Virus record (IMG/VR): IMGVR_UViG_3300043436_005163
Coordinates: 1-44,189 of that record
Reading direction: 5' to 3' (one strand)
DNA: 44,189 nt
Source of the DNA: a virus
In this document: positions 25,380 to 43,929 of the stretch, in pieces
Layout: each line of letters opens with the position of its first letter
Numbering within the stretch: the stretch's first letter is position 1
Translations under genes and position numbers: made by a program
The notes under the pieces: model-generated
Told to the model about the DNA's origin: nothing
The model's database searches: none
What the model saw: the letters and a program-made list of their open reading frames with translations, nothing else

Positions 25380-25958
25380 ATGAATAACAAAGAGGTATTT
25401 TCTAAAATTTACAAAGAAGACCTCTGGCATGGGGGCTCTGGAGCTGGCTCTAAGATAGAAAATGTAAAAGAGTATGTAGATGTTTTACAAAAATATATTA
25501 ATAAACCTGAAATAAAAACTGTGCTTGACCTTGGATGTGGGGACTGGCAGTTCTCTAAGTTTCTTGATTTATCATCTGTTTCATACCTAGGTGTAGATGT
25601 TGTAGAGTCTGTCATAGAGTCTAACAATAATTCTTACTCTGCTTCTAACGTAGAGTTTATTAGTCATGACATAACTACTTATGAAATACCAAAAGTAGAT
25701 TTAATAATATGCAAAGATGTTCTGCAGCATTTATGTAATAAAGATGTGATTGACATACTTGTAAAAATTATTAAGTCTTCAAAATTTTCTTTAGTAACTA
25801 ATGATTTTGCCTCGGCAGATTTAGTTAATAGAGATATTAATAATGGTGACTATAGATGCCTAGATTTGTCGCTGAGCCCATTTAATTTAGATGTAACTAC
25901 TCTTTTAGAGTTTGAAAGGGTTGGTTGGAAACCAAAACGTACTGTAACTCTTAACTAA
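25380..25958 (+). CDS. class I SAM-dependent methyltransferase
   Basis: This 192-residue protein has the SAM-binding motif I TVLDLGCGDWQFSKFL (about 47-62), an acidic end of strand 2 (YLGVDVVES) and motif IV DLIICKDVLQHL. The size fits small sugar- or protein-methyltransferases. The start at 25380 is one base after the SDR stop; a longer frame from 25332 would overlap that gene. The last 8 bases overlap, tail to tail, the end of the minus-strand glycosyltransferase gene. In this context it most likely methylates a sugar or a glycan end, by inference from its neighbours. Confidence 0.82.
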   Translation: MNNKEVFSKIYKEDLWHGGSGAGSKIENVKEYVDVLQKYINKPEIKTVLDLGCGDWQFSKFLDLSSVSYLGVDVVESVIESNNNSYSASNVEFISHDITTYEIPKVDLIICKDVLQHLCNKDVIDILVKIIKSSKFSLVTNDFASADLVNRDINNGDYRCLDLSLSPFNLDVTTLLEFERVGWKPKRTVTLN

Positions 25959-26817
25959 AATTAATAATAGATTTATATTTTTCTGTTCTATTTTTTTCAT
26001 CTTTTAGATAGTTAAACCACCATCTAGAGGCCCCAAGATTTTCACTTAATGTGAGTACGCCATATATAGTTCTATTGTCTATGTACTGAGGTATCCCTTT
26101 GTCTCTGGCAGAGTTAGAAAAAACCATGTACTCCCAGCGGTCTGACTCCTCTAGGTAAGTAAGTTCAGAGAGATGCTCTCTTTTAATTAGGTAGGTGCAG
26201 TGAACGCACATGCACTCAATTAGTCCTTTTACCTCTTGATTTAAAATTTTGTAGTAAACATCTTCTGCAATAATTGAACCAAAGTCATCTACCTTGTCAT
26301 GATAGTTTGAGTAATACATACTCATGTGACCTTCTCGCTTAGCAGCCTCTACAGGAGTATCAGCATTTTCACCGAAAGCAACCGCGTATCTTAAAAATGG
26401 GGCAACTATAGGTAGGTCTAGTTTGACTAATTCTTTGAGTGTTTCTGGGAACAAAAAGTTATCTATATCTACTACAAAGTAGTATTCACAATCTGTGAGT
26501 AAGGCTTGGTTCATACTCTCTTGACGAATTTTTCCTAAGACTCTAAACCTTTCACCATTCCAGAAATGAACATCGTACTGCTCTACTTTTTGTGGAACAT
26601 CTTCGCTGTTGTAGATTAGCCCTTTATATTTATCACCGTACTCTTCTATCCACTCTTCTAAAAGCCCTTTTGTGTTATCTGTGTTGTTATTAGTTCTGAT
26701 GTAGATAAATATGTTTTCTTTAGGGTAGTCCCAGTTGTTGAGACTTTCTAGAAATAATGGAAGAACGGCTTCTTTTTGTTTTACAAGAAGGGCTAAAAAT
26801 ACATTTGGCTGAGTCAT
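25951..26817 (-). CDS. GT-A glycosyltransferase resembling procollagen galactosyltransferase N-domain
   Basis: This 288-residue protein begins NVFLALLVKQKEAVLPLFLESL and has YIRTNNNTDNT (39-49), an Arg-rich acceptor region (ERFRVLGKIRQES) and FVVDIDNFLFPETL with a DxD at D117-D119. From memory, this order (short N-terminal strand, R/A-T-x-x-N-x-DNT, KIRQ, D-x-DN, VAP-L) is that of the first glycosyltransferase domain of COLGALT/GLT25D procollagen galactosyltransferases. Those animal enzymes have a second GT25 domain that is absent here. The gene is the last of the minus-strand sugar cluster, whose upstream genes include two collagen-like fibre proteins. The stop-start overlap with the preceding gene (TAATG) shows coupling. 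Confidence 0.72.
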   Translation of the reverse strand: MTQPNVFLALLVKQKEAVLPLFLESLNNWDYPKENIFIYIRTNNNTDNTKGLLEEWIEEYGDKYKGLIYNSEDVPQKVEQYDVHFWNGERFRVLGKIRQESMNQALLTDCEYYFVVDIDNFLFPETLKELVKLDLPIVAPFLRYAVAFGENADTPVEAAKREGHMSMYYSNYHDKVDDFGSIIAEDVYYKILNQEVKGLIECMCVHCTYLIKREHLSELTYLEESDRWEYMVFSNSARDKGIPQYIDNRTIYGVLTLSENLGASRWWFNYLKDEKNRTEKYKSIINFS

Positions 26818-27857
26818 TAGATACCTTGCTTATAAAAAACCATATTATTTATTAATCTGGCATCCGTTGGATTTCCTATAAGTGCTTTTTCTCCATACTC
26901 TACTGCCTTTGCTTTATCACCTAGGTAATGAGCAGATAGCGCTCTCATATCATCTAGCATCCAATTCCATAGAGCTTCAGATGATAGGTAGTGATTAGTT
27001 GGTTGGCATGTAGCAACTAGTTTGCAAGTTTCCCACACCCCACCCCAATCACTTTGTTCATAGTAGCAACGTACTTTTTCATAATACGCCTCACCGCATG
27101 GGTCGATAGAAATTGCTTTATCTGCCCACGTGTGTGCTTCTTCAAGTCTTCCTAAATTTCTGCATGCTTCAGATGCAAATCTACATACTGCTGCACGTTC
27201 CACGAACCAGTCTTTACTAAAATCACTAACTTTTTGAGCGCTACTAATTACTAAATCCCACATCTTGTAATAGTAATATTCACGACACAGATATACCCAA
27301 ATTCGATGGTCTTCACCAAACTCTTTACTTGCAGCAATTAACATTGTCATATATTGCCCGCGAGATTTTGTATTATCTGGTTTGTGGTACATCTTGGTAG
27401 GAATAGTGCAACTCATCAAAGGTGTATCAAGGGAAGGAACAAATACTTCATGAATAGGATATTTCCAATACACACCATCTCTAGCGTGCAAGCGAGCACC
27501 TAGCCAAGTATGACCAGTGTCAAAATCACACCAACCTTTGTTAGCCCCTGGCGCCCAGTGCTCTTTTACTTTTTTAAAAAAGTCTTTATCTACTGTTTCA
27601 TCTAAATCTAAACTTAGACACACATCTATATCTGCTGGTAATAAACTCTGAGCAGTATTTCTTGCAACATCAAATCTCCAAGGCTTTACACTTATTTCAT
27701 AGACAATAATCCCATTGCTTCTTAATATCTCTACTGTTTTATCTGTAGAGCCTGTGTCACAGACTAATCTAAAGTCTGCATCTTTAGTGGTGTCTGCCCA
27801 ACGCTGAGCGTGCTTCTCCTCGTTCAGGGCAATAGCGTATGCGGCAACTTTAATCAT
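26817..27857 (-). CDS. GT2 glycosyltransferase with C-terminal TPR-like repeats
   Basis: This 346-residue protein starts with a GT2 fold (YAIALNEEKHAQRWADTT, then CDTGSTDKTVEIL) and has the metal site SLDLDE (D84, D86). A hallmark histidine region (WKYPIHEVFVP) follows at about 130. Residues about 190-340 are helical TPR-like repeats (EEAHTWADKAISIDPCGEAYYEKV; AKAVEYGEKALIGNPTDARLINN) that may grip a protein acceptor. Glycosyltransferases with TPRs often modify Ser/Thr-rich proteins. The ATG is preceded at 6 bases by TAAATT and has no ribosome site. It heads a two-gene unit with the preceding collagen-type enzyme. Confidence 0.85.
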   Translation of the reverse strand: MIKVAAYAIALNEEKHAQRWADTTKDADFRLVCDTGSTDKTVEILRSNGIIVYEISVKPWRFDVARNTAQSLLPADIDVCLSLDLDETVDKDFFKKVKEHWAPGANKGWCDFDTGHTWLGARLHARDGVYWKYPIHEVFVPSLDTPLMSCTIPTKMYHKPDNTKSRGQYMTMLIAASKEFGEDHRIWVYLCREYYYYKMWDLVISSAQKVSDFSKDWFVERAAVCRFASEACRNLGRLEEAHTWADKAISIDPCGEAYYEKVRCYYEQSDWGGVWETCKLVATCQPTNHYLSSEALWNWMLDDMRALSAHYLGDKAKAVEYGEKALIGNPTDARLINNMVFYKQGI

Positions 27858-27863
27858 AAGCCT

Positions 27864-27869
27864 AATTTA
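27864..27869 (-). promoter_or_regulatory. possible -10 element of a leaderless promoter
   Basis: Read on the minus strand, TAAATT lies 6 bases before the ATG at 27857, with no ribosome site between. It sits in the 33-base gap between two glycosyltransferase genes. Weak alone; noted because the geometry matches 21876, 23685 and 31547. Confidence 0.3.
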
Positions 27870-27890
27870 TCATGATAAATTTATAAATGT

Positions 27891-28574
27891 CTATAATTCT
27901 GGATTGCGTATAAGATCTTTTGGGAATATCATTACTTTCTTATGATGAGCAACTTGAACTCTAGGATCTAAAAATATTTTATATCCAGCTTCTTGAGCCT
28001 TTCTGCACCAAGAAAAATCTTCAGCAAGTGGGACTAAAAACTCTTCTCCGTTACTACCATGTATTTTTGAAAAATGAGTCTCAAACCAAGGTCTTTTTAT
28101 ATTTTCAAAAACACCTTGTTTTACACAAATAAACCCAAATCCAGCAGATGATATCTCACGATATTCTTGTTCTGTAATAATTTTATAAGCAGAAATTTCT
28201 TGTCCTGCAGGAGTGTCTATTGCAAACATAGGAGTACCAAATTGATCTATATATATTCCTGAAACTATATCTTTATCTGAACTATACATATTCATAAAAT
28301 CAGCTATAGTCCAAGATATATCAGAATCTATCCAAAAGAATTTATCATATGTAACTTCTCCTCTAACTGGAGATTGATTAAATGCGTCTAAAAATTTAGA
28401 ACCCATTGCTGTAGCTTCTCTAGCAGTACTTACAGCAGAAGAGTACTCATTTAAAAATAAATAGCTAATTCCAACGTCTTTAAGATAAGTTATTGTTGAA
28501 ATTAAACTTTTTACATACTCTGCCTCCATTGATCTTCCTGGAGTTGCAATAAGAACATTAATGTGTTTTTTCAT
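27891..28574 (-). CDS. GT-A glycosyltransferase, member 1 of a three-gene paralogous family
   Basis: This 227-residue protein begins HINVLIATPGRSMEAEYVKSL and has the metal site WIDSDISW (D83, D85), followed by a conserved C-terminal block, EDFSWCRKAQEAGYKIFLDPRV.VAHHK. The block is shared with the genes at 30103-30780 and 30785-31540, so the three are paralogs. The catalytic base may be the Asp/Glu of the EDFSWC element. All three are short, single-domain enzymes without membrane segments. The start has a short AGG site with a nearby TAAAAT. Donor and acceptor are unknown. Confidence 0.8.
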   Translation of the reverse strand: MKKHINVLIATPGRSMEAEYVKSLISTITYLKDVGISYLFLNEYSSAVSTAREATAMGSKFLDAFNQSPVRGEVTYDKFFWIDSDISWTIADFMNMYSSDKDIVSGIYIDQFGTPMFAIDTPAGQEISAYKIITEQEYREISSAGFGFICVKQGVFENIKRPWFETHFSKIHGSNGEEFLVPLAEDFSWCRKAQEAGYKIFLDPRVQVAHHKKVMIFPKDLIRNPEL

Positions 28575-28609
28575 GTATTTTACCTAAACTATTAGTTAAT
28601 AACATAGAA

Positions 28610-29128
28610 CTAATTACCAGTAAACTTTGCGATAAATGCTCCTGTAAATTGAAAAAGTTTATAGTCAATAATACTATGAAACTTTTCTAAGACTAGCTCA
28701 GAGTTCCAGTCTTCTTCCACATGAATCTCATATGGATTATTATTGAAAGCCCCTTGTGGCATATGAGTTATAGGTATAGATATTATCGCGTACTTTGCTT
28801 GTTTAGAACATCTATTCCAAAGTTGAATAGCATCATTTGCTGACATGTGCTCTAAAACATCACCAAAAATTACTATATCATAATCAAAATTATCGTATAC
28901 TCTTACGTCTTTTTGATAAACATTATCATATATTGATTTTAAATTAAAATGATCTATATATGGTTGCCAAACTTCTATTGCATCAATAACAATGTTAGAA
29001 TTTATAAATGATTTTATAAATTCTCCATAAGTTCCTTCTCCAGCACCAACGTCTAAAATATTTTTAGGTTTAATCTGCTTAATTTTCTTAAGCAGCCAAC
29101 TTTTATTTTCTGGGTGTGAAGAAGGCAT
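28610..29128 (-). CDS. class I SAM-dependent methyltransferase
   Basis: This 172-residue protein has motif I NILDVGAGEGTYGEF (about 23-37), an acidic strand-2 end (IDAIEVWQPY) and motif IV YDIVIFGDVLEHM. It is related in fold, not closely in sequence, to the plus-strand methyltransferase at 25380-25958. It starts one base inside the stop of the GT4 gene (TAATG), so both are made together. It probably caps or decorates a glycan (inference), since all its neighbours transfer sugars. Confidence 0.82.
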   Translation of the reverse strand: MPSSHPENKSWLLKKIKQIKPKNILDVGAGEGTYGEFIKSFINSNIVIDAIEVWQPYIDHFNLKSIYDNVYQKDVRVYDNFDYDIVIFGDVLEHMSANDAIQLWNRCSKQAKYAIISIPITHMPQGAFNNNPYEIHVEEDWNSELVLEKFHSIIDYKLFQFTGAFIAKFTGN

Positions 29129-30048
29129 TATTTAACCTGATCTGGAAGAGATTCTAATATCTTAATCCACTCATATTTTCTAGTTTCCCAGCTATAGTGT
29201 TTATTAAAAAAATCAGATTGCTCTTTAATAAATTCTTGATTTTCAAGTGACCAATAATTATTTATAGTCTCTTCTAGTGCCTTGGCGTAATTTGCAATAA
29301 GAATTTTGGCATCTGCTTGAATTGGAACTAGCTTTGCATATATAGAACCTGTTTCTGGTAATCCTCCAATGTTTGTTGTAACTAAGTTACATCCAGCTGC
29401 GCCTGCTTCTATCATGGAAAGACAGGCTGTCTCTTCAAAAATACAAGGATAAGCAAAGATATGAGCTTTTTGAAGAGCTAAGATAACATCTTTATGTGGA
29501 GCATATCCGATATAGTTAACATTTTTCATACTGCGAGCGCGATCAAAAAGTTGCTCATATTTATTACCTTCATACTCTACATATTCTTGGCCATATATCT
29601 GAGTAGAAGAATAAATATCTAATTCTATATCATCTCTGTTTAAAAGCTCAAAAGAGTCAAGTAAAACATCTAAACCACGATATGGCATAGAAGTATATAT
29701 AAGTTTTATTTTTTCTTTTGGCTTTTCTACATAACTAATTGATTCTATTGCATTTCTAACTACATACGCATTTTCTAGATGAATTTGATGAATATAACGA
29801 AATTTTTCATGCTGCCAGTGTGAGACATACACATATGCATCTATTAATCTATTAAAATATTTATCTTTAATTCCTTGAACAACACTTTGATTCGCGGGGA
29901 TATGCTGCCATAAGATATTGCGCTTATCCATATCAACTAAATCTCTATAACACTTAGAATTAATGATGTTTACATTATACTTATCAAGATCAACATATTT
30001 TGCTAGGTTTTCTAGCATAATATCTTCTCCACCTTTAGGGTCAATCAT
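29128..30048 (-). CDS. GT-B glycosyltransferase, family 4-like
   Basis: This 306-residue protein has a group 1 (GT4) donor domain: IKLIYTSMPYRGLDVLLDSF, then NVNYIGYAPHKDVILALQKAHIFAYPCIFEETACLSMIEAGAAGCNLVTTNIGGLPE, the classic E-x7-E region around residues 205-230. The N-terminal acceptor domain is short (begins MIDPKGGEDIMLENLAKYVD), which may mean that the start is late or the domain reduced. A good AGAGAGGA ribosome site upstream of the ATG argues for the given start. It lies amid the paralogous GT-A genes. Acceptor unknown. Confidence 0.85.
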   Translation of the reverse strand: MIDPKGGEDIMLENLAKYVDLDKYNVNIINSKCYRDLVDMDKRNILWQHIPANQSVVQGIKDKYFNRLIDAYVYVSHWQHEKFRYIHQIHLENAYVVRNAIESISYVEKPKEKIKLIYTSMPYRGLDVLLDSFELLNRDDIELDIYSSTQIYGQEYVEYEGNKYEQLFDRARSMKNVNYIGYAPHKDVILALQKAHIFAYPCIFEETACLSMIEAGAAGCNLVTTNIGGLPETGSIYAKLVPIQADAKILIANYAKALEETINNYWSLENQEFIKEQSDFFNKHYSWETRKYEWIKILESLPDQVK

Positions 30049-30102
30049 CTAGTTTCCTCTCTAAACTTTAGTATTTATTATTTACTTAAAATAACTTTAG
30101 TG

Positions 30103-30780
30103 CTACTTTGGCCACTCAATTTTAACTTGCTTGTGATGATTTACTCTAACAAGTGGATCTACCCATATAGTAACTCCCATCCTGTGAACTTTTTCACACC
30201 AGGAAAGATCTTCTCCCATTAAAGGAAATTTATACTCTACAGCACCAGTTTCTTCATTTATTACTTCTACTTCCGTTTGTGAAAACCAAGGACGCTTTAT
30301 TTTTTCAAATATACCTTGTTTTACAGCTAAAAATCCAAAACCAACTCCTCTTACAGCAAAAGGTTTTTTTCTTGACATTATTTCTTCTTTTGTCATCCCT
30401 CCACGTAAAACCTTTGGGTACACTGTCACTTCTTCATTTGCAAGCATGTAACAGCCAGAAACAACTTCAACGTCATTACTAAGTAACTTATGTACGTCCT
30501 CTGGTTCCCACTCGATGTCGGAGTCGATCCAAAGTATTCGATCGTAACTATATAATCCATGGCCTGGACGAGAGTCATTAGGATCTTGATACCCTAGTCC
30601 TCCGATAGTTTTCTCTCTTGCGTCAGCAACTAAAGATGAGTACTCAGTTAAAAAATTCCAAGTAATTTGGTTTTGATCAAAAAAGTAAATAGTTTTTGCA
30701 AGACTACGCACATAAGCTTGTTGCATTGAGTGCCCAGGTGTGGCTATAAGTACATTAAAATGAGGTATTTGTGTGTCCAT
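30103..30780 (-). CDS. GT-A glycosyltransferase, member 2 of the paralogous family
   Basis: This is a 225-residue protein (start ATG 30780, 11 bases after GGAGGA at 30792-30797). A GTG at 30810 would add 10 residues and overlap the previous gene, and the paralog alignment favours the shorter form. FNVLIATPGHSMQQAYVRSL aligns with the gene at 27891-28574, as do WIDSDIEW (D86, D88), GVGFGFLAVKQGIFEKIKRPWF and EDLSWCEKVHRMGVTIWVDPLVRVNHHK. It appears closer to 27891-28574 than to 30785-31540. Probable role is sugar transfer to a phage structural protein or envelope glycan. Confidence 0.8.
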   Translation of the reverse strand: MDTQIPHFNVLIATPGHSMQQAYVRSLAKTIYFFDQNQITWNFLTEYSSLVADAREKTIGGLGYQDPNDSRPGHGLYSYDRILWIDSDIEWEPEDVHKLLSNDVEVVSGCYMLANEEVTVYPKVLRGGMTKEEIMSRKKPFAVRGVGFGFLAVKQGIFEKIKRPWFSQTEVEVINEETGAVEYKFPLMGEDLSWCEKVHRMGVTIWVDPLVRVNHHKQVKIEWPK

Positions 30781-30784
30781 AAAT

Positions 30785-31540
30785 TTAGTTATCCTCCGAT
30801 ATATTTCCACCTTTAAAAGTGTAAGTTCCTACATGGTCTAAGACTATTGTTGGGTCAACGTATACTTTTCCACCAATATTTTGCCAACGACGACAAAACG
30901 TGTAGTCCTCGCTGAGATACCTTCCATTATCAATCATGGTATCAAAAATAGCGTATTTTGACATTCCTTTCTGAGACTCTTCATCATAAACCTCTGGAAT
31001 ATAGCGTGTTTCAGGATAACTTTTTATAAGTTTTTCTATAACTGGTCTTTTAATAAGCATAAAACCAGTAGCACCATCATATATTTCTAATAATCCATTT
31101 TCAGTTGTGCTAGAAGTACTAGTTAACTTATTTACACCTGAAGAATAGCGAATTGCATTAGACTGTAGCGTTTTAACATCATTTGACGCAGAGCTAGCCA
31201 TTTTTTGCCAATCTATCATTTTTGTAGGATACGCTCCAGTAATAACGTCTTTATTCATGCTAATCATCTTAAATACATCGTCTGGATTAAAGTTTATATC
31301 AGCATCAATAAACATTAGGTGGGTTGCTGGAGTTTGTAGAAAAGTAAAAACAAGATCATTTCTTGCTCTTGTGATTAAACTTTCATTAGAGCGTGTAAAG
31401 TATCCTAACTTCATTCCATACTGTGCTGACTTAGAAACTAGTTGAAGTAAGGACTGTACGTATTTTTCATTTACTAGTCCACCGTAGCACGGTGTCGCGA
31501 CAAACAAAGTTGTACTACGTATAGTGTCCAATTTTAGCAT
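30785..31540 (-). CDS. GT-A glycosyltransferase, member 3 of the paralogous family
   Basis: This 251-residue protein has TLFVATPCYGG at the N-terminus, FIDADINFNPDDV (D79, D81) and the C-terminal block EDYTFCRRWQNIGGKVYVDPTIVLDH shared with the two paralogs. It has an extra Ser/Thr-rich loop at about 130-155 (NKLTSTSSTTENG). There is no ribosome site; TACTAT lies 6 bases upstream of the ATG. It is the first gene of the glycosyltransferase cluster, immediately after the propeller genes on the minus strand, so fibres and enzymes may be transcribed in order. Confidence 0.78.
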   Translation of the reverse strand: MLKLDTIRSTTLFVATPCYGGLVNEKYVQSLLQLVSKSAQYGMKLGYFTRSNESLITRARNDLVFTFLQTPATHLMFIDADINFNPDDVFKMISMNKDVITGAYPTKMIDWQKMASSASNDVKTLQSNAIRYSSGVNKLTSTSSTTENGLLEIYDGATGFMLIKRPVIEKLIKSYPETRYIPEVYDEESQKGMSKYAIFDTMIDNGRYLSEDYTFCRRWQNIGGKVYVDPTIVLDHVGTYTFKGGNISEDN

Positions 31541-31579: not shown

Positions 31580-34381
31580 TTAGGTTTTAATCCAAGGAGT
31601 GTATCCTACTGGAGCCTCTATAGGAGTAAGTACATGGTAAGTTTTAGGGATAGATTTGCTGTTTTTAGCCATGTAAAGTGACTGGTTTGATCCTCCTGCG
31701 ATAATCCAAGAGTTATTCCCATACGCTACCCTAGAAACAGGCTCAAGTGTGTCCGCGCCTGCGTACGAGTATACCTGTGTTGTCCAGTTTATTCCATCTA
31801 AAGACGTTCTTACTCCTCCATTTAAGCTTACCAAAATAAATATTCCATCTCCGTAGGCTATTGAAGAAATACCTAACGTTATAGGAATGTTAGAGTTTTG
31901 CGTGTTCCACGTCACACCGTTATCCGTTGAGGTCCTTAGCGCTCCTCCTGCACCTCCTGCGGCCCACACACCATTTCCATATGCAACCGAGCTAATCGCA
32001 CTGGTTCCAAACTGTGAAGTTTGCGTATTCCAGTTAAGCGCGTCAGTTGAAGTTCTTAACGTTCCACTAGCACCCACCGCAATGAAAGTTCCATTTCCAT
32101 AAGCAACTGCACATATAGTACTTGAACCAAATTGTGACGTCTGCGTATTCCAGTTAAGCGCGTCAGTCGAGGAGTGCAGCATACCTTGTATTCCTACAGC
32201 AACCCATACTCCATTTCCATACGCGACTGACTGGACAGCTGATGTGCCAAAGTTAGGTCCATAAGATCTCCAGTTTATAGTGTCAGTTGAGGAGCGCAGT
32301 TTTCCACTCGCACCTGCCGCAACAAAAATTCCATTTCCATATGCAACCGAGTTAATCCCACTTGTTCCAAACTCTGAAGTTTGTGTATTCCAGTTTATAG
32401 TGTCAGTTGAGGTCCGCAGCGTTCCCCCCGCGCCTCCCAAGACCCACGTTCCGTTTGCATACGCAACGGCTACGATCGAACTTGTTCCAAACTGTGACGT
32501 TTGCGTGTTCCAGGTCACACCGCCGTTTGTTGAAGTTCTTAACGTTCCTGCGCTTCCTCCCGCAACCCACGTGCCGTTACCATACGCAACAGCACTAATT
32601 CCACTTGAACCGCCAAACTCTGAAGTTTGCGTATTCCAGTTAAGCGTGTCAGTTGAGGTCCGCAGTGTTCCTGCAAATCCTGTCGCTACCCACACACCAC
32701 CTCCATACCCAACTGCATCGATAGTAAGAGTACTTCCAAAATTAGTACCGTATCCTATCCAAGTTATAGCATTGTTAGTTGATGTTCTTGTAGTTCCACC
32801 ACTTCCTCCAAGTAACCAAGTTCCATTTCCGTACGCAACACCAAGAATATCACTTGTACCAAAGTTAGGAGTCTGAGTATTCCATGTTACACCGTTATCA
32901 GTTGAGGTCCGTAGTCCTCCAGAAAAAGACGCTGCAGTCCACACACCATTACCATAAGAAACGGCGTTTAAACTACTTGTAGTATTAGAAGTACGCGTGG
33001 TCCACGTAACACCATCAGGTGAAGTTCTTATCGCTCCTCCTGCTCCTGTCGCTATAAAGACACCATTACCATAAGAAACGGCGTTTAAACTACTTGTAGT
33101 ATTAGAAGTACGCGTGGTCCACGTAACACCGTTATTCGTTGAAGTTCTTATCGCTCCTCCTGCTCCTCCCACTACAAAGACACCATTACCATATGCAACA
33201 GAGCGAATATCACTGGTTCCAAACGTTGACGTCTGCGTATTCCACGTCACACCGTTATTCGTTGAATTTCTTAACGCTCCACCCGCACCCACCGCTACCC
33301 ACGTGCCGTTGCCATACGCAATTGCACTAATTATACTAGTTCCAAACTGTGAAGTTTGCGTATTCCAGTTAAGCGTGTCAGTTGAGGTCCGCAGCGTTCC
33401 CCCTGCGCCTCCTACAACCCATACTCCATTTCCATACGCGACTGCATAAATAATACTTGAACCAAATTGTGACGTCTGCGTATTCCAGTTAAGCGCGTCA
33501 GTTGAAGTTCTTAACGTTCCACTCGCACCTCCAGCTACCCAGACACCGTTGCCGTACGCAACCGCAGATATGGCAGTTGCACCAAACTGATTTCCATGAG
33601 CGTTCCAAACAGTTATGTTTGTTGAAGTTCTTAACGTTCCTGCTTGTCCTCCAGCTACCCACGTGCCGTTTCCATACGTGATAGCACGAATTCCAGTTGT
33701 TCCAAACTGTGACGTTTGCGTGTTCCAGTTTATTGCATCAGTAGACGTTCTTAATACCGCCGAGTCTCCTCCCACTACAAAAACTCCATTACCATAGGCA
33801 ACTGAAGAAATTGAAGTTCCACCGAACTGTGAAGTTTGCGTATTCCACGTCACACCGTTATCCGTTGAGGTCCTTAGCGCTCCTCCTGCGCCTACCGCAA
33901 CATAAATTCCATTACCATAGGCAGTTGAAAAAATAGTACTTGAACCAAAATTAACTCCGTAATTAATCCAGTTTACCGCATTATCTAGTGATGTTTTTGC
34001 ATTTCCTCCGTCTCCCACCAAAAGCCAAGCTCCATTACCATATGCAGCAGAACAAATTCCATTTGCACCGAACTGTGAAGTTTGCGTATTCCACGTCACA
34101 CCGTTATCCGTTGAGGTCCTTAGCGCTCCTCCTGCACCTGCTGCTATATATGTCCCATTACCATAAGCAACAGAATTAATAATACTTAAGCCAATAGTAT
34201 GATTAACTGAAGACCAAGTAGAGTAATAAGGAATTATTTTACCAAGTCTAGAATTTGAGTTAATAGTTTGAGTAGTACTTAAATTTAACCAGCCTGGTCC
34301 TGGTGAACCTAATGAACTTTTTCTATATATAACACTACCAGTCTTGTACACTACTTCTTTTTTAGAATCTTGATTATTCAT
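31580..34381 (-). CDS. giant Asp-box beta-propeller protein with 21 blades (probable tail fibre)
   Basis: This protein is 933 residues from ATG 34381, which forms an ATGA overlap with the preceding stop. An ATG at 34396 would add five residues. A head of about 65 residues (YKTGSVIYRKSSLGSPGPGWLNL) is followed by 21 copies of a 40-residue unit of the type YGNG.WVAGG..GTLRTSTDNGVTWNTQTSQFG. The S-T-D-x-G-x-T-W element is the Asp-box (BNR) of sialidase-like propellers. Twenty-one blades equal three seven-bladed propellers. The last unit differs (YGNNSWIIAGG). The C-terminus ends in GYTPWIKT. No sialidase catalytic residues can be identified. It probably binds a surface glycan or receptor. Confidence 0.82.
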   Translation of the reverse strand: MNNQDSKKEVVYKTGSVIYRKSSLGSPGPGWLNLSTTQTINSNSRLGKIIPYYSTWSSVNHTIGLSIINSVAYGNGTYIAAGAGGALRTSTDNGVTWNTQTSQFGANGICSAAYGNGAWLLVGDGGNAKTSLDNAVNWINYGVNFGSSTIFSTAYGNGIYVAVGAGGALRTSTDNGVTWNTQTSQFGGTSISSVAYGNGVFVVGGDSAVLRTSTDAINWNTQTSQFGTTGIRAITYGNGTWVAGGQAGTLRTSTNITVWNAHGNQFGATAISAVAYGNGVWVAGGASGTLRTSTDALNWNTQTSQFGSSIIYAVAYGNGVWVVGGAGGTLRTSTDTLNWNTQTSQFGTSIISAIAYGNGTWVAVGAGGALRNSTNNGVTWNTQTSTFGTSDIRSVAYGNGVFVVGGAGGAIRTSTNNGVTWTTRTSNTTSSLNAVSYGNGVFIATGAGGAIRTSPDGVTWTTRTSNTTSSLNAVSYGNGVWTAASFSGGLRTSTDNGVTWNTQTPNFGTSDILGVAYGNGTWLLGGSGGTTRTSTNNAITWIGYGTNFGSTLTIDAVGYGGGVWVATGFAGTLRTSTDTLNWNTQTSEFGGSSGISAVAYGNGTWVAGGSAGTLRTSTNGGVTWNTQTSQFGTSSIVAVAYANGTWVLGGAGGTLRTSTDTINWNTQTSEFGTSGINSVAYGNGIFVAAGASGKLRSSTDTINWRSYGPNFGTSAVQSVAYGNGVWVAVGIQGMLHSSTDALNWNTQTSQFGSSTICAVAYGNGTFIAVGASGTLRTSTDALNWNTQTSQFGTSAISSVAYGNGVWAAGGAGGALRTSTDNGVTWNTQNSNIPITLGISSIAYGDGIFILVSLNGGVRTSLDGINWTTQVYSYAGADTLEPVSRVAYGNNSWIIAGGSNQSLYMAKNSKSIPKTYHVLTPIEAPVGYTPWIKT
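31680..34175 (-). repeat. array of 21 units of about 120 bp
   Basis: Tandem, imperfect 120-bp units encode the blades of the 933-residue protein. The coding phase is kept throughout. Several units are nearly identical at DNA level with units in the neighbouring genes: for example, 32220-32263 is identical to 37144-37187 and 33200-33265 to 35814-35879. Limits are approximate. Confidence 0.85.
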
Positions 34382-35442
34382 TTTATTTTCATCCATCCAT
34401 ATACACCATTACCGAGATATGTATTAGGTGTTTTAAAAGTAGTTAATATTTTTGTTGTTGCAATTACGCCCAGTCCAACTACAACCCATGCATTATTACC
34501 ATAAGCTGCATCGTAAACTATCGAATTTATATTATTTAATGATATCTGCGTATTCCAGTTAAGTGCATCCGTAGAAATCATAATTCCTTGACTGTTTATT
34601 CCTCCTAATAACCACTTATTATCTGCGTATGTTAAAGCATAACTGGCTATTTGTCCTGATGTATACGTTTTTGGGATAGACCAGTTTATAAGGTTAGTAG
34701 AAGTTTGTATAGTATCATCTGCGTTAATTGAAGCTACTGCCCAAATTCCATTTCCATACGCTATTTTAGAAATTCCTGTTACTAAATAGTTTAAAGTTGT
34801 TTGCGTGTTCCACGTCACACCGTTATCAGTTGAGGTACGTAATCCTCCACCTACACCTCCAAAAACCCACGTGCCGTTTCCGTAGGCAACAGAGCATATA
34901 GTTGCGCTGTAATTAGATGTCTGTGTTGTCCACGTCACACCGTTATCCGTTGATGTTCTTACACTTGCTGAACTACCGACAGCAATCCACGCGCCATTAC
35001 CATACGCAACAGCACATATGGCTGTAAAAAATGTAGAAGTTCGCGTAGTCCATGTAATACCATTTTCTGATGTTCTTAAAGCTGTACCCGCGCCTACAGC
35101 AACGAAAGTTCCATTTCCATAAGCAATTGAAAAAATAGTACTTGAACCAAACTGTGAAGTTTGCGTATTCCAGTTAAGTTCATCTGTTGACGTACGCAGT
35201 ACTCCTGATGCACCTCCAGCTACCCAGACACCGTTGCCGTACGCAACCGCACATATATTTAGTCCACTTCCATCATTTAAAAATTTTAAATTTGCTAAAG
35301 AAGAATTAGAAAGTTTATTAGAAAAATTACTATCAACTTTAACTACGCTTCCATCAAGTTTTACCCATGAACTTCCTGGTGAGTCAATACCAAATACTAT
35401 TTCACCTGTATCATAGTAGTTTTTTCTTATATTTTTATTCAT
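34378..35442 (-). CDS. Asp-box beta-propeller protein with 7 blades (probable tail fibre)
   Basis: This 354-residue protein starts at ATG 35442, which overlaps the previous stop as ATGA; an alternative ATG at 35451 adds three residues. A head of about 60 residues (YYDTGEIVFGIDSPGSSWVKLDG) resembles that of the 21-blade protein. Seven 40-residue units follow, each with Y(G/A)(N/D)(G/N).W and usually an Asp-box (STDNGVTW, STDELNW). Seven units make exactly one propeller. The seventh has YGNNAW in place of YGNG.W. The C-terminus ends in YGWMKIK. This is the simplest member of the family and a natural choice for structural work. Confidence 0.82.
   Translation of the reverse strand: MNKNIRKNYYDTGEIVFGIDSPGSSWVKLDGSVVKVDSNFSNKLSNSSLANLKFLNDGSGLNICAVAYGNGVWVAGGASGVLRTSTDELNWNTQTSQFGSSTIFSIAYGNGTFVAVGAGTALRTSENGITWTTRTSTFFTAICAVAYGNGAWIAVGSSASVRTSTDNGVTWTTQTSNYSATICSVAYGNGTWVFGGVGGGLRTSTDNGVTWNTQTTLNYLVTGISKIAYGNGIWAVASINADDTIQTSTNLINWSIPKTYTSGQIASYALTYADNKWLLGGINSQGIMISTDALNWNTQISLNNINSIVYDAAYGNNAWVVVGLGVIATTKILTTFKTPNTYLGNGVYGWMKIK
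34430..35255 (-). repeat. array of 7 units of about 120 bp
   Basis: Seven imperfect 120-bp units encode the single propeller of the 354-residue protein. This array is the least homogeneous of the three at DNA level, though the first two units share long runs with the other genes. Limits are approximate. Confidence 0.8.
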
Positions 35443-38400
35443 TGTGTCCATCCAACAATAGATAGATTTGGGTCTATAGGTTGATTATAGCCCACTAATA
35501 AGTCAGATCTGTACAAGTGCCCTTGAGTAAGTGCTACCCATGTATTATTTCCATAGGCAACTGCGTTAAAGCTGCTTGAGCCAGTATAATGTTGTGTATT
35601 CCATGTCACACCGTTATCCGTTGATGTTCTTATCTTATTGACAGGCTCAGCACTACTTACAATTGTCCATAAGCCATCTCCATAGGCAACTGATTGAACT
35701 TTACCATTTTTAAATCCTGATTCTCTAGTTGTCCAATTAACTGCATCACTTGAAATACTAATTGTACCAAATGTATCTCCTCCTGCTATCCACACGCCAT
35801 TTCCATATGCAATAGAGCGAATATCACTGGTTCCAAACGTTGACGTCTGCGTATTCCACGTCACACCGTTATTCGTTGAGGTCCGCAGTGTTCCACCTGC
35901 GCCTACCGCTGTCCACGTGCCGTTACCATATGCAACAGAGCGAATTATACTAGATCCAAACTGTGATGTTTGTTGCGTCCAGACTATTAGATCAGTTGAA
36001 GTTTTTAAAGTTCCACCATCACCAGCTGCTACGTACACTCCATTGCCGTAGGCAGAAGACTGAATAGTAGAAGATCCAAATTGAATTCCATAAGCATACC
36101 AATTGAGTGCATCAGTAGATGTTCTTAACGCTCCACCCGCACCTGCTGCAGCAAAAATTCCATTTCCATATGCAACCGAGCTAATCGCACTGGTTCCAAA
36201 CTGTGAAGTTTGCGTATTCCAGTTAAGCGCGTCAGTTGAAGTTCTTAACGTTCCACTCGCACCTCCAGCAACCCAAATTCCATTACTATAAGTAATTGAC
36301 TGGATTACAGCTCCACCAAACTGTGAAGTTTGCGTATTCCATGTTATCGCATTATCAGTTGAGGTCCGCAGCGTTCCCCCCGCGCCTCCCAAGACCCACG
36401 TTCCGTTTGCATACGCAACAGCACTAATTCCACTTGATCCAAAGTTAGAAGTTCGTGTGGTCCAAAAAATTGAGTCAGTAGAAGAAAAAAGTTGACCAGA
36501 GCTGTTACCAGCTAAAAATATTCCATTACCATAAGATACAACGCATGTACTAGGAGAAGAAGAAAAATTTGAACCATGAGTGTACCAGTCTATAGCGTTA
36601 CTTGAAATTCGCGTTGCAAAGTTAGCAGAAATTATAAATATACCATTTCCATAAGCAGATGCTGTTATGGTGCTACTACCTAATGGAGATGTTCTGGTAA
36701 CCCATGTTAGTCCATCAGTAGAAGTTCTATAATTTCCACTAGACGCAGCAAGAAAAAATATTCCATTACCATAAAGTAAAGAGTTAATATTGTTAGCACC
36801 GTAGTTAGATGCCTGCGTAGTCCACGTAACACCGTTATCCGTTGATGTTCTTATGCTGTTAGTTCCACCACTGGTAAATCCTCCTGCTACCCATGTGTTA
36901 TTACCATAGGCAACTTTATCCAAACTACTTGTAGTATTAGAAGTACGCGTGGTCCACGTAACACCATCAGGTGAAGTTCTTATCGCTCCACCTATACCCA
37001 CCGCAACAAAAATTCCATTTCCATATGCAACCGAGCTAATCCCACTTGAACCAAATTGTGACGTTTGCGTATTCCAGTTAAGCGCGTCAGTTGAAGTTCT
37101 TAACGTTCCACTCGCACCTCCAGCTACCCAGACACCGTTGCCGTACGCGACTGACTGGACAGCTGATGTGCCAAAGTTAGGTCCATATTGATACCACGTC
37201 ACACCGTTATCCGTTGACGTTCTCATCATACCACTAGGTCCAGCAGCTACGAATAAACCGTTACCATATCCGATAGAGCTAATCACACTTGTACCAAAAC
37301 CAGTCTGTGTTGTCCACGTCACACCGTTATCCGTTGATGTTCTTATCATTCCTCCATTTCCTCCAGCTGCCCACGTGCCGTTGCCGTACGCGACTGACTG
37401 GATTGCAGTTGTAGTATTAGAAGTACGCGTGGTCCACGTAACACCATCAGGTGAAGTTCTTATCGCTCCTCCTGCTCCTCCTGCTATAAAGACACCATTT
37501 CCATATGCAACCGAGCTAATCGCACTGGTTCCAAACGTTGACGTCTGCGTGTTCCAGGTCACACCGCCGTTTGTTGAAGTTCTTAACGTTCCTGCTTGTC
37601 CTCCAGCTACCCAAGTGCCGTTTCCATATGCAATAGCGTTGATTCCAGTTGTTCCAAACTGTGAAGTTTGTGTATTCCAGATCACACCGTTATCCGTTGA
37701 GGTCCGCAGTGTTCCACCTGCGCCTACCGCTGTCCACGTGCCATTCCCATACGCAACCGCACATATAGTACTTGAACCAAAGTTAGAGGTCTGCAGTGTC
37801 CATGAAATTCCATCAACAGAGGTTCTTATTGAAGTTCCTGAAGTTGCCACCCAGACGCTGTTTCCAAAGGCAGAATATGTTACTCCACTTGGATTATGTC
37901 TTCTTTGCCAGTAAATTGAATCACTTGACGATATTAAGGCACTTGAAGTTCCAGCTACCCACGTGCCGCTACCGTATGCAACAGCGGATAAAGCTGCAGA
38001 CGAGCCTAAGTCTATGGTTCCGTTATTTCTCCAAGTAGTACCATCATCAGTTGACGCTTGTATCACTCCACCCGTAATTGCAGCAACAAAAGTTCCATTA
38101 CCAAAACTTAATTGAATAGCTTGCTGCCCATTTAATCCAGCACTTTGCGTATCAGTCCAAGTAGCACCGTTGTCTGTTGATATAACGTATTGTCTATCAC
38201 CTGTGCCTGCATGTGAAACTAGCCAAACTCCATTTCCATATGCAATACTACATATACCTGTTCTATCTACTCCAACTAAATTCCAGTTTTGTGCACTATC
38301 TGTTGAGGTCCGCAGAGCTCCGGCACTGTACCCTGCTATCCACACGCCATTTCCATACGCAACTGAATGAATAGTAGATGAGCCAGAACCAAGTTCTTTC

Positions 38401-39947
38401 CATTTTACAAGATTTCCAGTTGATATAGCCATAACACCTGAAGTTCCACCTACAACCCACAGTCCATTTCCATATGCAATTGATTGTAAACCACTTGAAC
38501 CTGAAAGTTTTATCGGAGGCATCGTTGAAACCCAGGTAACAGCGTTTGTAGATGTGCGCATAGATGGAGCGGAGCCTCCTAGCACAGCAAAAGTTCCATT
38601 TCCATACGTAATAGATGTAAAAGTAGTTGTAGAAAAAGAGTTAGATGAAACCCACACTACGCCTGGGTTAGTTGATGATGAAATTGTACCTCCGTCTCCC
38701 GCCGCAACAAAAATTCCATTACCATACGCAATTGAAATGATACCGCTTGAACCAAACTGTGACGTTTGCGTGTTCCAGTTTATTGCATCAGTAGACGTTC
38801 TTAACGTTCCTGCGCTTCCTCCTGCAACCCAGACACCGTTGCCGTACGCAACGGCTGCAATAGCAGTTGCACCAAACTGTGAAGTTTGCGTGTTCCATGT
38901 TAGTGCATCAGTAGACGTTCTTAACGTTCCTGCGCTTCCTACCGCAGCAAAAATTCCATTTCCATATGCAATGGATTGAATTAAAGTTGAACCAAACTGT
39001 GACGTTTGCGTGTTCCAGTTTATTGCATCAGTAGACGTTCTTAACGTTCCTGCGCTTCCTACCGCAGCAAAAATTCCATTTCCATATGCAACCGAGAAAA
39101 TAGTAGTTGAACCAAACTGTGAAGTTTGCGTGTTCCATGTTAGTGCATCAGTAGACGTTCTTAACGTTCCACTTGCACCCACCGCGACCCACGTGCCGTT
39201 TCCGTATGCAATTGAAGTTATGGCAGTTGTGCCAAAGTTAGATCCGTATCCTCTCCACGTCACACCACTATCAGTAGATGTTCTTACTGCTCCACTATTA
39301 CCTCCTGCAACCCAGATACCATTACCGTAAAAAATAGAGTTTAAAGTACTTGTATTTGAAGTAGTTGGTTGACTCCATGTGTATAAATTATCTGAGCGTA
39401 ACAGTATTCCAAGTACACCTGTCGCTACCCACACACCATTTCCATACGCGACTGCATGAATACCTGAAGAAGTATTAGTTCCAATTGCACTCCATGTAGT
39501 CTCTACAGTTGATACTCTAAAGAATCCAGAAGCACCTGCCGCTACAAAAACGCCATTTCCATATGAAAGTGTATTAATGTTATTAGCGGTAGAAGTATAA
39601 GATGATGGAACATTCCATACTGTCCCACCGTTAGTTGATATGAATAAACTTCCTTGTCCCCCACCAGCTACCCACACTCCGTTTCCATATGTAACAGAAG
39701 ATAGTACTTGAGTCTTACTTATTGTTTCTCTAGCCCAAAGCTGGCCTGTTGCTACAGAAGACTTACTTGATCTTTTACTAAAAGTATATGACTCATCAAC
39801 AGAAGACAATGAAAAATCCTCGGGTTCAAATCCTTTAAGAAAAAAGCGTAAATAACCTTGTCTTTCATTCTGTAAAGTTGTAGGGTTATACTCACCGTTA
39901 ACTATTTCGGTGTTATTATTAAATCCATCTTCCCTACCATAATTCAT
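35439..39947 (-). CDS. giant Asp-box beta-propeller protein with 35 blades (probable tail fibre)
   Basis: This 1502-residue protein has a head of about 80 residues (including YLRFFLKGFEPEDFSLSS), which differs from the other two heads. It is followed by 35 units of about 40 residues with YGNG.(W/F)VA.G and Asp-box S-T-D-x-G-x-T-W. Thirty-five equals five propellers of seven blades. Units 5-8, 17-23 and 28-32 are especially alike, and a central part (units 9-16, 24-27) is more diverged. The last unit has YGNNTWVAL, and the protein ends in IVGWTQ. The ribosome site AAGGAGT precedes ATG 39947 by about 6 bases. Internal near-identity at DNA level suggests growth by recombination. Confidence 0.84.
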   Translation of the reverse strand: MNYGREDGFNNNTEIVNGEYNPTTLQNERQGYLRFFLKGFEPEDFSLSSVDESYTFSKRSSKSSVATGQLWARETISKTQVLSSVTYGNGVWVAGGGQGSLFISTNGGTVWNVPSSYTSTANNINTLSYGNGVFVAAGASGFFRVSTVETTWSAIGTNTSSGIHAVAYGNGVWVATGVLGILLRSDNLYTWSQPTTSNTSTLNSIFYGNGIWVAGGNSGAVRTSTDSGVTWRGYGSNFGTTAITSIAYGNGTWVAVGASGTLRTSTDALTWNTQTSQFGSTTIFSVAYGNGIFAAVGSAGTLRTSTDAINWNTQTSQFGSTLIQSIAYGNGIFAAVGSAGTLRTSTDALTWNTQTSQFGATAIAAVAYGNGVWVAGGSAGTLRTSTDAINWNTQTSQFGSSGIISIAYGNGIFVAAGDGGTISSSTNPGVVWVSSNSFSTTTFTSITYGNGTFAVLGGSAPSMRTSTNAVTWVSTMPPIKLSGSSGLQSIAYGNGLWVVGGTSGVMAISTGNLVKWKELGSGSSTIHSVAYGNGVWIAGYSAGALRTSTDSAQNWNLVGVDRTGICSIAYGNGVWLVSHAGTGDRQYVISTDNGATWTDTQSAGLNGQQAIQLSFGNGTFVAAITGGVIQASTDDGTTWRNNGTIDLGSSAALSAVAYGSGTWVAGTSSALISSSDSIYWQRRHNPSGVTYSAFGNSVWVATSGTSIRTSVDGISWTLQTSNFGSSTICAVAYGNGTWTAVGAGGTLRTSTDNGVIWNTQTSQFGTTGINAIAYGNGTWVAGGQAGTLRTSTNGGVTWNTQTSTFGTSAISSVAYGNGVFIAGGAGGAIRTSPDGVTWTTRTSNTTTAIQSVAYGNGTWAAGGNGGMIRTSTDNGVTWTTQTGFGTSVISSIGYGNGLFVAAGPSGMMRTSTDNGVTWYQYGPNFGTSAVQSVAYGNGVWVAGGASGTLRTSTDALNWNTQTSQFGSSGISSVAYGNGIFVAVGIGGAIRTSPDGVTWTTRTSNTTSSLDKVAYGNNTWVAGGFTSGGTNSIRTSTDNGVTWTTQASNYGANNINSLLYGNGIFFLAASSGNYRTSTDGLTWVTRTSPLGSSTITASAYGNGIFIISANFATRISSNAIDWYTHGSNFSSSPSTCVVSYGNGIFLAGNSSGQLFSSTDSIFWTTRTSNFGSSGISAVAYANGTWVLGGAGGTLRTSTDNAITWNTQTSQFGGAVIQSITYSNGIWVAGGASGTLRTSTDALNWNTQTSQFGTSAISSVAYGNGIFAAAGAGGALRTSTDALNWYAYGIQFGSSTIQSSAYGNGVYVAAGDGGTLKTSTDLIVWTQQTSQFGSSIIRSVAYGNGTWTAVGAGGTLRTSTNNGVTWNTQTSTFGTSDIRSIAYGNGVWIAGGDTFGTISISSDAVNWTTRESGFKNGKVQSVAYGDGLWTIVSSAEPVNKIRTSTDNGVTWNTQHYTGSSSFNAVAYGNNTWVALTQGHLYRSDLLVGYNQPIDPNLSIVGWTQ
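35510..39700 (-). repeat. array of 35 units of about 120 bp, with a 240-bp higher-order repeat
   Basis: Thirty-five imperfect 120-bp units are present. Within them a two-unit block at 38760-38999 recurs at 39000-39239: bases 38761-38820 and 39001-39060 are identical over 60 bases, and 38881-38930 equals 39121-39170. This pattern shows a recent tandem duplication. Limits are approximate. Confidence 0.85.
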
Positions 39948-39966: not shown

Positions 39967-40347
39967 TTAAAAGTCTCCACCAAAAGCTATAACGTTAAAA
40001 GATTCTGAATTATTAGTTGTTGCTCTAAGTGAATGCCCAGAAGGTAACATAAAATTATTATAGGTAGATGTGGATGAAAACACAGCTTGAGTAGTAGATG
40101 GAGTAACAGCAGTCACCATAACTTCTTGAAGTAAATAGTATGTTGAACCAGTGTATACCCATAGACGTACTACTCCCGCGGTTGTAGTTCCCGTCGAGAC
40201 GATGTTGATCTCGTCGATGCGTGAGCCGCTTGCTCCTGCGGTGAACACGGTACCTACGTTGGTAGGTGAGGTACGCGAAGTGTCGGCTGTTGCAATATTA
40301 GCTGCCGAGACGCGAACAGTCGCGGCAAAATTTGGTGCTGCTGCCAT
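39967..40347 (-). CDS. small conserved phage structural protein (126 aa)
   Basis: This 126-residue protein is rich in Thr, Ala and Ser and looks all-beta (MAAAPNFAATVRVSAANI...FTAGASGSRIDEINIVSTGTTTAGVVRLWVYTGSTYYLLQEV...FNVIAFGGDF). From memory, the pattern FTAGASGSRI...TTTAG.VRL...FNVIAFGGDF occurs in many phages and prophages next to tail-fibre genes, with no fixed function. The ribosome site AAGGAAAAAT lies directly upstream. Codon use is more GC-rich than in its neighbours. It could be a fibre accessory or decoration protein. Confidence 0.7.
   Translation of the reverse strand: MAAAPNFAATVRVSAANIATADTSRTSPTNVGTVFTAGASGSRIDEINIVSTGTTTAGVVRLWVYTGSTYYLLQEVMVTAVTPSTTQAVFSSTSTYNNFMLPSGHSLRATTNNSESFNVIAFGGDF

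Positions 40348-40372: not shown

Positions 40373-41665
<1,293 letters not shown>

Positions 41666-41781: not shown

Positions 41782-43929
<2,148 letters not shown>

Follow-up and report, generated by a model that had tools for sequence, protein, structure and literature searches.

Phage Asp-box propeller proteins of 7, 21 and 35 units: probable closed seven-bladed rings, apparently added whole

Among the closest described systems, two provide precedents for blades that come in whole rings. WRAP (Npun_R6612 of Nostoc, PDB 2YMU), as its source describes it, has 14 contiguous, near-identical blades, folded as two 7-bladed propellers and including a velcro blade (PMC6805158), and the DDB1/Rik1 family is described as having 21 WD40 repeats that make up three seven-bladed propellers (PMC3271066). 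Propellers described from phages include those of phiKZ gp131C, with 7 blades, and of phi11 Gp45 and PRD1 P2, with 5 blades each (PMC4901313). The survey of Pereira and Lupas (2022) reports recently amplified blades, including those of the Asp-box group, and long arrays of up to 47 blades (PMC9218822). Here we consider three overlapping genes, all on the minus strand of a 44,189-base IMG/VR virus record (IMGVR_UViG_3300043436_005163; "the window" denotes this whole stretch), that encode proteins of 7, 21 and 35 Asp-box units. We argue that these proteins are probably phage structural adhesins made of seven-bladed Asp-box propellers, and that the larger ones have gained whole, apparently inserted, propellers. 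The cassette consists of the following genes, each counted by a regular expression, a unit hidden Markov model (HMM) and a Viterbi parse:

35439..39947, minus strand: P0003, 35-unit Asp-box propeller protein, 1502 aa, slot 1
34378..35451, minus strand: P0001, 7-unit propeller protein, 357 aa, slot 2
31580..34396, minus strand: P0002, 21-unit propeller protein, 938 aa, slot 3

The first-pass annotation of this DNA had reported 7, 21 and 35 Asp-box units, and the same numbers were obtained by all three methods. A loose regular expression finds exactly 7, 21 and 35 anchors in P0001, P0002 and P0003, spaced 36-45 residues apart, the unit length being about 40 residues; the unit HMM, trained on units of the window proteins and of their relatives, gives identical counts, with which the wrap-around Viterbi parse agrees. 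The strand was not stated in that annotation, and its gene starts were slightly shorter, corresponding to the next in-frame ATG (MNK.../MNN...); many relatives start at this position and, judging from the sequences, the shorter starts may be the better ones. Three further contigs, each under an IMG/VR identifier of its own, contain the entire 8,368-bp cassette with 0 mismatches, so that the counts do not depend on one assembly.

The repeated four-strand Asp-box units, with strands A-D present in most of the modelled ones, identify the proteins as Asp-box beta-propellers with blades rich in Ser and Thr. Pfam DUF6242 scores above its cut-off in P0002 and P0003, and BNR falls below its cut-off in all three proteins (in P0002, E 9.1e-6 and 25.4 bits against a cut-off of 27). 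Having Asp-boxes, the blades are not of the WD40 type; the sole WD40-named Pfam match is that of WD40_like to P0002 (E 0.025, 14.4 bits against a cut-off of 40). Sialidase-type glycoside hydrolases possess a catalytic Arg triad, a Tyr and a Glu; in a sequence search of solved structures, the only sialidase matched has E 0.64.

From the repeat number, the first-pass annotation had proposed that the proteins are built of closed seven-bladed propellers, with structure prediction as the check, and the model of the smallest protein supports this. The predicted rings are:

34444..35298, minus strand: closed seven-unit propeller domain of P0001, residues 52-336 (predicted model, VIA-align)
33131..33973, minus strand: part of P0002 closing as a seven-bladed propeller, residues 142-422 (low-confidence full-length model)

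The AlphaFold2 model of P0001, built on a 22-sequence alignment, has a predicted local distance difference test score (pLDDT) of 82.3 and a predicted template modelling score (pTM) of 0.78, and it is a closed toroid. Its residues 52-336 match virginiamycin B lyase (2z2p_A) with a VIA-align Z of 31.0 over 277 residues (root-mean-square deviation, rmsd, 2.4), the designer protein 7big_A, 7-bladed by its title, is matched with Z 30.6, and the top Foldseek match is YCF48. The 21-unit protein fared differently: in its weak model, residues 142-422 match 7big_A (Z 32.2, rmsd 2.3, 272 residues), with the ring closed between strand D of unit 2 and strand C of unit 9, so that it comprises units 3-9, not 1-7. 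WRAP (2ymu_A) is among the structural matches of both models. A WRAP-like tandem array, with uninterrupted, near-identical blades making whole propellers, may be present: the counts are multiples of seven, and the fold of P0002 is that of a low-confidence model.

The ends of the blocks suggest how a ring of seven might be closed. The last units of all three window proteins alike lack an Asp-box with its Trp, and in relatives, a strand of the last-unit type (e.g. WTTQTSNF) stands before unit 1; the leading strand and the Trp-less last unit together resemble a "velcro" closure. A 1736-aa relative contains five linker-separated blocks of exactly seven units, each of the form D+(ABCD)x6+ABC. We propose that the single outer strand at the start of a block and the three-stranded unit at its end complete one blade between them, and with a blade completed in this manner, the block would close properly at seven units. 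A different mark of closure had been suggested in the first-pass annotation, namely that the last units read YGNN, as if this were a cap or closing blade. The final units of P0001, P0002 and P0003 do read YGNN, but the interpretation as a cap is ruled out by the occurrence of YGNN in unit 24 of P0003 and, frequently, in ordinary units of many relatives, as well as by the final units of the two 7-unit proteins of the relative G008, which are YANS and YGDG. Another candidate, D-strand variants of the W.YG.NFG type as propeller boundaries, was also rejected: these are found in units 2, 5, 12 and 16 of P0002 and units 4, 21, 26 and 30 of P0003, a spacing that fits no single scheme.

When considering the possibility that seven is the closed unit, the relatives are of particular importance. 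These were drawn from IMG/VR scans and follow-up regions, along with three named phage records, and are denoted here, where necessary, by G or L numbers. To enter the tally, a protein had to have four unit anchors or more, and the loci considered were those fetched as close relatives and a few remote ones; 71 such proteins were collapsed to 60, the criterion being that over half of the 8-mers are shared, and four that had only cut blocks were dropped, which left 56. Cut blocks in other proteins were dropped as well, with two script-flagged ones (in the 1771-aa L199 protein and the 443-aa L187 protein) retained in view of the leading strand present. A 1016-aa protein of G050, not countable, was left out, as was S-CBWM1 gp119, with its weak unit matches only; contigs G047 and G048 hold cut fragments only, and many loci of the first scan were viewed by HMM only. 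A scan of genome contigs yielded one match, in a Deltaproteobacteria metagenome-assembled genome.

In these 56 non-redundant proteins, 75 of the 78 uncut blocks were found by hand reading to be multiples of seven, the assignment of degenerate and linker units in this reading having been made knowing the hypothesis. Blocks of 7, 14, 21 and 28 units occur in relatives. All uninterrupted arrays longer than seven (12 of 12) are multiples of seven in this reading: 35 and 21 in the window, 28 in G008 and G015, 21 in G003, G033 and G010, and 14 in G027, G045, G046, Limnohabitans phage DC31 and Vibrio phage vB_VmeM-32. The HMM matches give the counts of G033, G027, G045 and G046 directly and that of vB_VmeM-32 at a 0-bit threshold; for G003 the HMM gives 21 and Viterbi 20, for G008 27 and 28, respectively, and hand correction was involved for G015 (25 and 27 before correction to 28), G010 (18 before correction to 21) and DC31 (11 HMM matches before correction to 14). 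Sixteen remote proteins were also viewed, and nine of these were assigned a count, seven 7s and two 8s: L027, L102, L039, L046, L105 and both L080 proteins, all outside the tally, read as seven, and L044 and L041 as eight, the L041 protein entering the tally as G014. Seven is, then, very likely the closed unit.

The same gene slot can hold different multiples. The gene order of a 126-aa gene followed by slots 1, 2 and 3 recurs in relatives, with the following unit counts:

Slot 1: 35 in the window; 28 in G008; 21 in G003; 7 in G005, G015, G028 and G032
Slot 2: 7 in all seven complete loci (the window, G005, G006, G008, G015, G028 and G032)
Slot 3: 21 in the window; 28 in G015; 7 in G001, G005, G006, G008, G028 and G032

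N-terminal similarity to the window protein (E <1e-3) is detected for slot 2 in seven loci and for slot 3 in five; for slot 1, it is detected in G008 only, and the other slot 1 assignments are by gene order.

As to how the sevens are added, one candidate, the recent copying of whole seven-unit blocks, can be dismissed for the window: units seven apart show no excess similarity in P0003 (p 0.34 for nucleotides, 0.21 for amino acids) or in P0002 (p 0.83 and 0.51), so that the multiples of seven in these proteins are not accounted for by such copying. One of the 36 periodicity tests gave p 0.01 (period 10, P0002, nucleotides) and was given no weight. The number of units in the window proteins thus seems, from these comparisons, to be held by closure rather than by recent block copying. 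We propose instead that the larger proteins acquire whole propellers, inserted, judging by the relatives, at a loop of an existing propeller. Under whole-propeller insertion, the total would climb by sevens, the seven blades of the host plus seven for each insert giving 14, 21, 28 and 35; the 21 units of the window protein P0002 would represent a host with two inserted propellers, and the 35 units of P0003 a host with four.

The relatives contain pairs in which such a module is present in one protein and absent at the same site, with similar flanks, in the other: the 700-aa protein of G045 against the 402-aa protein of G046, the 1362-aa protein of G046 against the 1075-aa protein of G045, and G017 against G029. 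Unit geometry points in the same direction. In the 1239-aa, 28-unit protein of G008, the distance from the anchor to the Asp-box Trp is 23-24 residues in ordinary units, 18-20 in units 1, 10 and 19, and 32-34 in units 8, 17 and 26, with units 11 and 18 being intermediate (27 and 29); in the last array of G033, units 1 and 10 are short and units 8 and 17 long, and unit 21, also long, has no short unit to go with it. In both arrays taken together, the next unit of at least 30 lies exactly seven after the short one for 5 of the 5 short units, with the cut of 30 having been set after the values were seen (the script used 27). In a nested reading of the G008 protein, units 2-8, 11-17 and 20-26 would be inserts and units 1, 9, 10, 18, 19, 27 and 28 the host. 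When the three inserts are cut out at positions picked by eye, seven host units are left: six score 23-57 bits, and the final one falls below zero. The host as a whole scores 181.4 bits, compared with at most 11.4 in 200 shuffles. The same procedure applied to G017 gives a host of 318 residues that scores 17.0 bits (shuffles at most 8.3). In a scan of 11 arrays for complementary indels, the offset of seven gives the sole pair in G045/G046 and the top pair in G033. Finally, markers read by eye in G003 (partly from the near-identical L118 and L127), together with anchor-to-Trp distances, assign units 1, 2, 3, 11, 19, 20 and 21 to the host, and a similar reading of G015 assigns units 1, 2, 10, 11, 19, 27 and 28; both agree with seven host blades and are not independent evidence. 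Nesting is, on these grounds, likely in the relatives and possible in the window proteins.

Several observations weigh against this interpretation. With regard to the counts, an automatic, uncorrected rule makes only 50 of 81 uncut blocks multiples of seven, although by hand reading the misses appear to come mainly from degenerate units, which break up blocks, or from the inclusion of linker units in the count. The relatives, moreover, are a selected set, having been taken because their units looked close. The exceptions in the tally are two blocks of five (G039 and G019) and one of eight (G014); a remote eight-unit block, in L044, lies outside the tally. The five-unit blocks have very similar units and were assembled from metagenomes, so that they may represent repeats that collapsed. 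In the models, eight-bladed designer proteins rank 2, 3 and 8 in the Foldseek list of P0001, and the full-length model of P0002 is weak (pLDDT 63.0, pTM 0.43; other models 36-41). With regard to nesting, only five of the seven blades of the G017 host are detectable, and two of these five lie below 4 bits. The complementary-indel scan, which will match every short unit to every long one, does not single out the offset of seven in G008 (where the best pair has an offset of 8), G003, G015, vB_VmeM-32 or the window, and finds nothing in G027. Nor does the geometry of the units in P0002 bear any sign of insertion, and in P0003 the signs are ambiguous. The window units are homogenised, and their topology is not readable from sequence alone. 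The five-unit block at L186:2677-4161 (minus strand), in a protein whose long C-terminal part is non-repeat, is possibly a five-bladed propeller or a collapsed repeat.

The blocks of five and eight could be taken to mean that the blade number is not constrained at all, and that 7, 21 and 35 are a coincidence or an artefact of assembling near-identical repeats; the noise of the automatic counts and the 15-blade (7+8) and 47-blade arrays reported in other propeller lineages (PMC9218822) would fit such a view. It is strongly disfavoured, and in our opinion most improbable, given that three further contigs carry an identical cassette, that all 12 uninterrupted arrays above seven obey the multiple in the hand tally, and that modules of seven units are gained or missing as a whole at fixed sites. 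What had been put forward in the first-pass annotation as an exact rule holds in the relatives as a strong preference, with the blocks of 5, 5 and 8 showing that it is not absolute.

The same annotation envisaged an in-line bead-string fibre, that is, one, three and five closed seven-bladed propellers in succession (units 1-7, 8-14 and so on) without a linker. The counts of 7, 21 and 35 are those expected of such a fibre, the relatives G020, G021 and G036 have 7+7 blocks in series, joined by a short linker, and the 14 contiguous blades of WRAP, as reported, are two 7-bladed propellers (PMC6805158). The weak model of P0002, however, closes units 3-9, not 1-7, the 28-unit protein in slot 1 of G008 reads as a host with three inserts, and units 7, 14, 21 and 28 of the window arrays are not consistently marked as boundaries. 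In relatives with linkers or irregular arrays, the extra propellers seem to be located inside blades or loops of a host propeller, and we consider the in-line arrangement unlikely for the window.

Insertion of whole propellers into a host propeller, if general, would amount to a recursive architecture, with propeller blades carrying inserted seven-bladed propellers, insertion perhaps two levels deep in G045/G046, and tree-like adhesins growing mainly in sevens and decorated by glycosyltransferases. We put this forward tentatively, with the chances slightly short of even; the 2058-aa protein of G033 may, in an unverified reading, perhaps reach up to 49 blades. Two further features of the relatives were observed. 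In G045/G046 (L226:3101-8417 and L227:3116-8399), two overlapping genes appear to share the coding of a single host propeller, one ending in FVGGD and the next opening with a strand C-D pair, which might mean that one propeller is assembled from two chains or by frameshifting. In L188, L199 and L185, N- and C-terminal stretches (KVKNGL..., ISGSDVRLRATITDA...) flank single or double propellers and recur between proteins, an arrangement suggestive of a propeller placed within some other domain.

The possible role of the arrays has to be judged from the genes around the cassette:

39967..40347, minus strand: conserved 126-aa protein directly upstream of the cassette, 63-77% identity in 6 of the 11 relative loci searched
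40373-41665, minus strand: collagen-repeat tail-fibre gene upstream of the cassette (PHROG tail fiber; collagen match)
41782-43920, minus strand: collagen-repeat tail-fibre gene upstream of the cassette (Pfam Collagen; collagen match)
30785-31540, minus strand: glycosyltransferase-like gene directly downstream of the cassette, sub-threshold Anp1 match
30103-30810, minus strand: glycosyltransferase-like gene without a Pfam match of its own, related to its Anp1-like neighbour; homologues of the product (46-88% identity) in 10 of the 11 relative loci
29128..30048, minus strand: glycosyltransferase group 1 (Pfam Glycos_transf_1, E 2.7e-14), homologues in 9 of the 11 relative loci

The genes downstream belong to a glycosyltransferase-like block (25951-31540, minus strand), several of whose members have homologues in most relative loci, even where the N-terminal domains are unrelated; a 172-aa gene at 28610-29128 (minus strand) resembles a methyltransferase gene. 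Downstream of the genes for the tape measure and the tail is a helicase-like gene (14688-16487, plus strand; PHROG DNA helicase). Among the relatives, the 14-unit gene of vB_VmeM-32 is located one small gene downstream of a gene resembling that of a long-tail-fibre distal subunit, the propeller protein itself being noted as similar to an outer capsid protein. Weaker related propellers are found in annotated cyanophage baseplate wedge proteins, and the weaker relative in S-CBWM1 lies near a tail fibre gene and a glycosyltransferase gene.

From this neighbourhood, it appears likely that the arrays are adhesive and borne on the tail, and their gene position makes receptor binding plausible. On the tail fibres, they would present one binding surface in many copies, which would make for avid attachment to host glycans, and the adjacent, co-occurring glycosyltransferases may, perhaps, glycosylate them. 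The same fold could also serve a purpose other than receptor binding, with the glycosylated arrays decorating the surface of the tail or capsid, or acting as spacers there, and so concealing the virion or keeping it attached to particles and biofilm. The homologues of the downstream glycosyltransferase-like genes, which occur with the arrays in 10 and 9 of 11 relative loci, even with differing N-terminal domains, the Ser/Thr-rich blades and the resemblance of the vB_VmeM-32 protein to an outer capsid protein would all suit such a function, whereas the collagen fibre, long-tail-fibre-like and baseplate neighbours favour adhesion at the tail. A purely decorative role seems to us unlikely; the two roles are not mutually exclusive.

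If tail-borne arrays of whole, inserted propellers are indeed what these genes encode, they would offer a natural system in which counting repeats in different genomes reveals the stoichiometry of domain closure, and in which a phage multiplies its binding sites by inserting complete domains. Propeller-in-propeller insertion would be an unusual construction for a virus attachment protein, and whether an extra propeller stands in line or nested is a defined question for structural biologists. Such an architecture may also explain large "hypothetical" Ser/Thr-rich repeat proteins of environmental phages and their link to glycosyltransferases.

The window proteins can now be set against the known systems. 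They share S-x-D-x-G-x-T-W turn units with the YCF48-like Asp-box (BNR) propellers (PDB 5ojr, 2xbg), from which they differ in having many near-identical blades and several propellers per chain, and in being encoded by a phage. WRAP is of the WD40 type, bacterial and 14-bladed, and the described parts of its account contain no propeller-in-propeller insertion (PMC6805158); DDB1/Rik1, also of the WD40 type, is a eukaryotic E3-ligase adaptor, not a phage protein. The propellers of phiKZ gp131C, phi11 Gp45 and PRD1 P2 resemble the window case in belonging to known or suspected receptor-binding proteins but, as described in their source, occur singly in the chain and not in multi-propeller arrays (PMC4901313). 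The surveyed arrays of 15 and 47 blades, as reported, are, unlike those of the window, not multiples of seven, and their existence means that multiples of seven are not automatic (PMC9218822); the text of that survey does not contain the word "phage". Among the titles found in a limited literature search, none concerned phage arrays with blades in sevens or propeller-in-propeller insertion. Thus, with precedents for 14 as 2x7 and 21 as 3x7 and with single phage propellers already known, the window proteins are a variant of a known fold; what is new is a phage family whose arrays grow by sevens, reaching 35 blades without interruption, and in which propellers are apparently inserted into propellers.

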